From the NCBI GenBank assembly GCA_018711625.1, contig DVID01000014.1, positions 24,614-88,613 on the forward strand: a stretch of 64,000 nucleotides of DNA, read 5' to 3'. Of this stretch, positions 22,014-46,239 are shown one piece after another. The DNA is from Candidatus Limicola stercorigallinarum (lineage in GTDB: Bacteria > Actinomycetota > Coriobacteriia > Coriobacteriales > Coriobacteriaceae). Positions within the stretch are counted from its first letter, which is position 1; every line of letters starts with the position of its first letter. The notes beneath the pieces are model-generated. The model was not told the origin of the DNA. It did not search any database and saw nothing but the letters and a program-made list of their open reading frames with translations. The position numbers and the translations under genes are program-made.

Positions 22014-22257
22014 AAAACAAGTATAGCGGGGATAGAACGCATGAGCGATGCATTGCTAGGGGAGCTTTGATCAAAGCGTTGACGAGGATGGATGGGGTGA
22101 AATGAACCCACTCCTATCCACCCTCATCCGACTAATCAATACTTTGTGATTTAGTGCAGTTTGTGTCTTGCCCTTAATCACACCGAGGTGGCAAAGTGCA
22201 CCGGCCTTCCTTCTAGTTTCGTGCGAAGGTCGGTCCACTCGGAGGCCACCGTCTGAA

Positions 22258-22401
22258 AAAAAGTACGCCATTTCAGAACGCGATTCGCGTTTGGCCGAGT
22301 ACACCGCCGCCCGCGCTTGGCAAAACCCCAGTTGGCGAGCCTCTCCAAGTCACGTCTTCCAGCAATAATTTGAAGTACGTTCTGAAATGGCGTACTTTTT
22401 T
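22258..22401. repeat. Long inverted-repeat element A (24-bp arms, 96-nt loop)
   Basis: Arms 22258-22281 AAAAAAGTACGCCATTTCAGAACG and 22378-22401 CGTTCTGAAATGGCGTACTTTTTT are perfectly complementary; flank and loop motifs shared with 45843-45985. Confidence 0.85.
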
Positions 22402-22678
22402 CTGGAGGCGGGTGTGGACGGGGCCGTTCCATCCCGTCAAGCCGCAATTAATCGCAATCTTTTACTTTGTTCAGCGTTTTGCTGGCGCCCGTGTACCTCC
22501 CATGAAGAGCAACAAGCCATTTGCATTTTATTCATTCGTGCGTAAAATATGTTTTCGCCTGCGAATATACCGAAGAAGTGGCGTTTACGCACTTCACCTG
22601 CTCCATTCGTTGGCGTATCATAATCAATCGTTTGTTTGTAGTTGCAGCTGTCATGCTGCTTGGTTGGAGGAGTTTTCA

Positions 22679-45428: not shown

Positions 45429-45504
45429 GGGGGCGTAGCTCAGCTGGGAGAGCGCTTGACTGGCAGTCAAGAGGTCAGGGGTTCGATCCCCCTCGTCTCC
45501 ACCA
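45429..45504 (+). tRNA. tRNA-Ala (anticodon GGC), 3' CCA encoded
   Basis: 76-nt cloverleaf GGGGGCG..CTGGCAG loop..GGTTCGATCC..CGTCTCCACCA. Confidence 0.95.
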
Positions 45505-45547: not shown

Positions 45548-45842
45548 TATTCATCGCTCTTGGAACGTCCATTCAAGTCAGGGGCAAAAGGCCTTCGTTG
45601 CTCAATCAATGCGTCTCACTCAATAGTGCTGTCGTTATATCCCTTTCATGTCGTCTCGACATTGAGAATCTCCGGTACGGAGCGATTGGGTCAAACAGCA
45701 AAGTAGCGCATCTAACCCGTTGCGTCACGCGCTCTATCCTCAATGAGCCCAATCCGCGAAGCGACGGCGCGGGAACGAAGCATGCTCTCCCTTTATGGCA
45801 ATCTAGCGGGATGAAACAGGCTCGTCCCCACCGGCTCAACCA

Positions 45843-45985
45843 AAAACTTTTCGATTTGTTGCAGTTTGAGGCTGGCTCGCGAAGTACTCGGCTGAATCCC
45901 GACGCTGTGACCTGCGCTTTTGGTCCACATAAAGGCCGGTCTATTCGGAGGGTGCAGTCCAAACCGCAACAAATCGAAAAGTTTT
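45843..45985. repeat. Long inverted-repeat element B (26-bp arms, 91-nt loop)
   Basis: Arms 45843-45868 AAAACTTTTCGATTTGTTGCAGTTTG and 45960-45985 CAAACCGCAACAAATCGAAAAGTTTT, 25/26 complementary; shares flank and loop motifs with 22258-22401. Confidence 0.85.
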
Positions 45986-46123
45986 GTCCTGGGCTGCCGG
46001 GCGCGACGGGCGCCTTTTGTCGATGCCCCTGAAACGGACACACGTTTCGTCCTTTAACCCCGCATTGACTGGCAAACGTGTTGATAGGGGAGTCAAGTCC
46101 GAGTGTCAGAAATCATGGAATGC

Positions 46124-46166: not shown

Positions 46167-46239
46167 TGGGCCCAGCAGGATTCGAACCTGCAACCCAGGG
46201 ATTATGAGTCCCCTGCGCTAACCGTTGCGCCATGAGCCC
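46167..46239 (-). tRNA. tRNA with CAU anticodon (tRNA-Ile2 or elongator tRNA-Met); CCA not encoded
   Basis: Minus strand GGGCTCATGGCGCAACGGTTAGCGC..GGGACTCATAATCCC..GCAGGTTCGAATCCTGC..TGGGCCCA. Confidence 0.9.

Follow-up and report, generated by a model that had tools for sequence, protein, structure and literature searches.

What are the two long inverted repeats that lie between genes in a 64,000-nucleotide stretch of the Candidatus Limicola stercorigallinarum genome (the window), and what, if anything, recognizes their arms? Element A occupies 145 bp with its arms included (22257-22401, minus strand as oriented by its CAACTGGGGTTTTG motif). Its perfect 24-nt arms lie at 22257-22280 (AAAAAAGTACGCCATTTCAGAACG, dialect A of this genome, common to 14 complete copies) and, as the inverted copy, at 22378-22401, and are separated by 97 nt. 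Two perfect 24-bp arms as close as a few hundred bases do not arise by chance in 64 kb. An earlier note made from the sequence had described this repeat, and its 24-bp perfect arms are borne out, with the start moved by one to 22257 and the loop set at 97. Its placement between divergent dinB (Pfam IMS) and rpsP (Ribosomal_S16) was also correct. Two core motifs are found on the minus strand, CCAACTGGGGTTTTG (22321-22335), the counterpart of ACCTGCGGTTTTG, and GTGTACTCGG (22295-22304), the counterpart of GTCTACTCGG.

The companion repeat, element B, is real as well, measuring ~145 bp with arms (45842-45986, plus strand) and situated between two tRNA genes (45429-45501, plus strand; 46167-46239, minus strand). 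Its 25-nt arms, AAAACTTTTCGATTTGTTGCAGTTT at 45843-45867 (dialect B of this genome) and an inverted copy with one mismatch at 45961-45985, enclose the plus-strand core motifs ACCTGCGCTTTTG (45910-45922) and GTCTATTCGG (45939-45948). A coding role was rejected for A, which shows neither a frame bias nor a frame that stays open across all copies, and is probably also absent for B, where 10 of 15 copies keep a frame across 45842-45986 (KLFDLLQFEADPQNTRLKPDAVTCAFVPRKGRSTRR...) open and the third-position excess is slight at most.

Copies and nesting in the host genome

Searching the host assembly (1.96 Mb, 49 contigs) with A returned 16 places including A itself, at 74-100% identity and with three at or near contig ends, to which an arm-pattern search added the diverged copy L128, giving about 17 copies. 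The corresponding search with B gave 14 further places, or 15 copies, which are dispersed, since their flanks are mostly unrelated. Where the earlier note had envisaged a family of two, and had named a lack of further copies as what would refute it, there are thus many copies each of A and B. Measured between the ends of the arm pattern, the 14 complete A copies and the 15 B copies are without exception 143 bp long.

Many A copies sit inside a second, B-type arm pair, the members of which are 285 bp apart instead of 118. In the window, alignment to the B consensus places an older, diverged B-type copy around A, with its left part (arm and core) at 22138-22246 and its right arm at 22437-22463, beyond A and a flank motif (both plus strand). 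From this arrangement, A seems to have been inserted near the right end of a B-type copy that was older and in reverse orientation. Copy L128 combines A-like arms with a B-like loop, and a joint A/B alignment spans the full length; judged from sequence, A and B are one family. When L128, as the intermediate, is aligned with many other copies, the loop segment that is truly shared reads CTGSGSTTTTG ... GGTSTAYTCGG, whereas the loop words previously put forward as shared, GAGGCTSGC and GTACTCGGC, do not occupy homologous positions. The proposal that the element is palindromic, mobile or duplicated, and able to swap its arms came close, with A and B as arm dialects of one dispersed and nested family.

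The flank motif GGATGGAACGGCCCCGTCC, which had been reported as shared by the two elements, is indeed present beside A (22416-22434, minus strand) and, as a cousin, beside B (45809-45827), but it is no part of either. It is a separate dispersed repeat, given its 41 sites in the host genome at up to two mismatches (0 in a reversed control), most of them away from A and B copies. By eye, it resembles RAYT-linked repeats. Other features adjoin individual copies: an inverted pair of approximately CTCATGCCGGAAAACGGTGCAAGAG on the right side of two A copies (L018 and L019), which may be a third arm dialect; a T-box leader match below threshold beside an A copy (L019:761-1054); and strong GC-rich hairpins (AAAACCGCCGCGAGGGAGC...) on both sides of the element at L158-L160.

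Distribution across Coriobacteriales

A covariance model of A and B together, as the earlier note had advised, contained zero common pairs and became a sequence-only model from the joint alignment. Applied to 397 genomes of the order at an E limit of 0.01, it matched 103 genomes, including 57 of the 67 in the host family (Coriobacteriaceae); at this limit, some of the weak matches outside the family are due to chance. A pattern of two core motifs, run over ~85,000 species genomes, occurred at 12 places, all in Coriobacteriales (Collinsella provencensis, C. tanakaei, Collinsella sp. An2, Enorma massiliensis and one Eggerthellaceae assembly). One of the 12 has exactly the sequence of an element in G002, a genome of the same genus, and G002 is thereby identified as Collinsella sp. 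An2.

Overall, 55 of 58 copies fell outside genes predicted by a simple gene caller. Neighboring genes were in tandem at 29 copies, convergent at 18 and divergent at 6, counts that are descriptive only, as the set includes some orthologous or duplicate loci and the gene pairs of the window are too few for a baseline. A shared neighboring gene was rejected as the source of the elements: the largest recurring family, ABC transporters, is expected for an abundant family. A single query each against phage and plasmid records gave no match. Viral contigs yielded two coincidences in apparent coding sequence and none afterwards, and a 25-nt match to the A loop in G028 looks like a coding coincidence. 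Rfam gave nothing credible for the copies tested at curated and permissive thresholds (E up to 5), a description of the family was absent from Rfam and the literature searched, and we found no literature on such repeats in Coriobacteriia.

Arms are specific to each genome and strictly spaced

Across genomes, the elements follow one layout, consisting of an arm (22-30 bp), approximately GAGTAGAC, a variable stretch, ACCTGCGGTTTTG or CAACTGGGGTTTTG, a second variable stretch, GTCTACTC and the inverted arm. Element size is ~140-145 bp and varies hardly at all among the copies of an arm family, apart from an alternative class that is 11 bp longer. For example, an arm search of Collinsella sp. An2 found 30 forward and 30 reverse sites, which pair at 116, 117 or 127 bp and never further apart; the 127-bp class has the same arms around a 105-nt core of a different type. 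The 11-bp step between length classes may correspond to one helical turn. In C. provencensis the arms are quite different in sequence and also pair at 116 bp, with one pair at 115.

We compared arms and cores across seven arm families. Within genomes, mean pairwise identity was 0.85-0.94 for arms and 0.58-0.80 for cores, while between families it was mostly 0.4-0.6 for arms and 0.50-0.59 for cores, the higher arm values representing related dialects (G002/G001a, 0.84; G000B/G318, 0.71). Because the copies had been collected partly through their arm pattern, those found without it were checked for dialect: arms of the own genome were present in all 21 copies from the model search (G001, G002 and G318) and in 7 of 9 from the core-only pattern, the other two having different arms. 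Two dialects occur in one genome in the host (A and B) and in G001. The arms of A and B, earlier described as unrelated, are not wholly so, in that arms across genomes appear by eye to drift from a rough common pattern, AAAACTY..TTCG.TTT..TGCAGTTTT. Single copies in C. provencensis (L163) and Collinsella sp. An2 (L170) have intact core motifs and arms foreign to the main dialect, and these arms are possibly older or incoming dialects.

If the stem itself were selected, changes in one arm would be expected to be compensated in the other. Both-sided changes numbered 7 cells in A (3.0 when shuffled) and 10 in B (2.4 when shuffled), and kinship of the copies alone can produce such compensated changes in both. 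Other changes remain unpaired. Column pair 19/151 of A is unpaired in 8 of 14 copies, and the commonest polymorphism of the Collinsella sp. An2 arms, at position 10, is near-independent between arms (TT 9, TG 10, GG 9, GT 3), with the remaining changes in that genome being mostly one-sided. In C. provencensis the two arm consensuses consistently differ (GC versus AT). The compensatory divergence suggested earlier is weakly supported, in that both-sided changes exist but several mismatches are fixed or near-independent. On the basis of these uncompensated mismatches together with the strict length, we interpret the arms as a pair of inverted DNA sites recognized by sequence, in what would be a non-autonomous dispersed element, and not as a selected RNA stem.

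Dispersed elements or stationary sites

At the locus of A, dinB and rpsP are 668 bp apart in the host versus 269 bp in Collinsella sp. An2, a difference of ~400 bp. A comparable inverted repeat was not found upstream of rpsP in ten relatives, several of which have a divergent ORF there that is not clearly dinB. There are also recent sub-families, reaching 93.6% identity over 218 bp between two sites of Collinsella sp. An2. Nesting, recent sub-families and the extra ~400 bp at dinB-rpsP all support spread. In one sub-family of that genome (L338, L328, L330 and L323), likeness extends beyond the arms into a unit of ~250-330 bp with flanks such as AACAGTGGGTTAC.

At three sites of G001, the genes on both flanks are those found beside element-bearing G002 sites, and further sites agree on one flank; the three fit old, stationary sites as well. 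Core similarity could not establish shared descent at such sites: at six of those common to G001 and G002, the cores resemble each other no more than random pairs do, so that shared descent and repeated insertion are indistinguishable there. Cores in both genomes are too diverged for a recent whole-element spread of most copies. By eye, no target-site duplication was seen in the flanks, where the ends are uncertain amid A/T runs and nested repeats, and no arm pair at kilobase spacing, as expected of a parent insertion sequence, was present in G000, G001, G002 or C. provencensis at up to three mismatches, although draft assemblies could miss one.

Weighing these results, we consider it somewhat better than even (a probability of roughly 55%) that A and B belong to a non-autonomous family of dispersed palindromes in Coriobacteriales, hosted by Collinsella, Enorma and some Eggerthellaceae, whose arms are read by a DNA-binding enzyme acting in trans. 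Each copy would be a DNA site made of two inverted arms of 22-30 bp at a fixed distance around a core with GAGTAGAC, ACCTGCGGTTTTG and GTCTACTC. A sequence-specific enzyme, for which a recombinase or transposase is the likeliest candidate, would read both arms and spread the element, and enzyme and arms would change together between lineages, giving rise to the dialects. Complementarity of the stem would then follow mainly from the fit of both arms to one and the same reader. Counting in favor are the copies with unrelated flanks, A nested in reversed B-type copies, the dinB-rpsP spacing, arm versus core identity, the dialect in copies found without the arm pattern, strict arm spacing and fixed mismatches. 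Counting against are the target duplication and parent element that were not seen (the latter in four genomes), the diverged G001 and G002 cores, the three sites these genomes share and some compensated arm changes. More tentatively, the family may be a paired-site DNA element, serving recombination or architecture, that is neither derived from insertion sequences nor driven by RAYT proteins, in which a putative fast-evolving protein imposes a genome-private arm on all copies, whatever their age, and lengths are quantized by one helical turn.

Alternative explanations

A doubtful alternative is that the copies stay in place and serve as sites for a DNA-binding protein of the host, architectural or regulatory and specific to the lineage, and that they are kept by selection and co-evolve with it. 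Arms conserved while cores diverge, a spacing that hardly varies apart from a class longer by one helical turn, and the G001/G002 sites common on both flanks, or more often on one, would all be accommodated by this explanation. However, it does not readily account for nested copies, recent sub-families at new sites, the absence from dinB-rpsP in relatives or two dialects side by side within one genome, and the shared sites lend it no support by descent, their cores being like random pairs.

Less probable still is that the elements are classical MITEs, that is, deletion derivatives of an insertion sequence whose transposase recognizes the arms as terminal inverted repeats. They are short and non-coding, end in inverted repeats, occur in many dispersed and mostly intergenic copies, and nest. 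In this they resemble MITEs of the Correia/ERIC type (PMC10969869), which are non-coding, intergenic, dispersed and hairpin-forming, 100-200 bp long and have terminal inverted repeats of ~25 bp. By description, the present family differs from these in its genome-private end sequences, its core motifs common across genera, the lack of any parent element or target duplication found, and its restriction in our scan to Coriobacteriales. Since no kilobase-spaced arm pair turned up in the four genomes, no insertion sequence with these ends is known; target duplication was not seen, and core motifs conserved across genera would be unusual for deletion derivatives.

We regard as improbable a structured RNA, whether a cis-acting hairpin, a terminator or a processed double-stranded RNA, with selection on the stem. 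Single-strand folding is far stronger than in shuffled sequences (z = -4.95 for the A region and -3.63 for the B region), some arm pairs are compensated, and convergent neighbors (18) outnumber divergent ones (6). Against this, arm mismatches are fixed or independent, the arms are conserved as sequence within a genome, the diverged loop keeps a near-invariant length, Rfam gave no match, and A itself lies between divergent genes. No intrinsic terminator (GC-rich stem, short loop and T run) was found at A or inside B, and two terminators near B are both outside the element. The Collinsella-1 RNA motif (RF01700, PMC2864571) has only its host group in common with the family and gave no credible covariance-model match.

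Movement of REPIN-like elements by RAYT proteins (HUH transposases) was tested and largely refuted. Genes for Y1_Tnp proteins, many of them RAYT-like, are present in 55 of 67 Coriobacteriaceae genomes, and RAYT-like members of ~250-300 amino acids occur in most genomes of the family (L289-L303, for example G000:C44:50047-50376). REPINs (PMC3116915, PMC8266576) also share with these elements a genome-specific inverted pair, a more variable center and the behavior of a within-genome population. Their involvement is nevertheless very unlikely, as these elements are missing from all 15 Y1_Tnp regions inspected (in their place, several have inverted repeats of the GGGGACG type), six genomes have copies without a Y1_Tnp match (G057, which is C. 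provencensis, G011, G015, G023, G061 and G078), and the 22-30-bp arms are not themselves palindromic and, by reading, have no GTAG/CGTC tag at a constant place.

Implications

This element family is widespread in common gut bacteria, namely Collinsella and its relatives. Arms that are uniform within each genome and differ between genomes, while the core drifts, would constitute a natural experiment on the joint change of a DNA-binding enzyme and its dozens of sites, and the arm of a given species would offer a direct handle for finding the putative enzyme that binds it.
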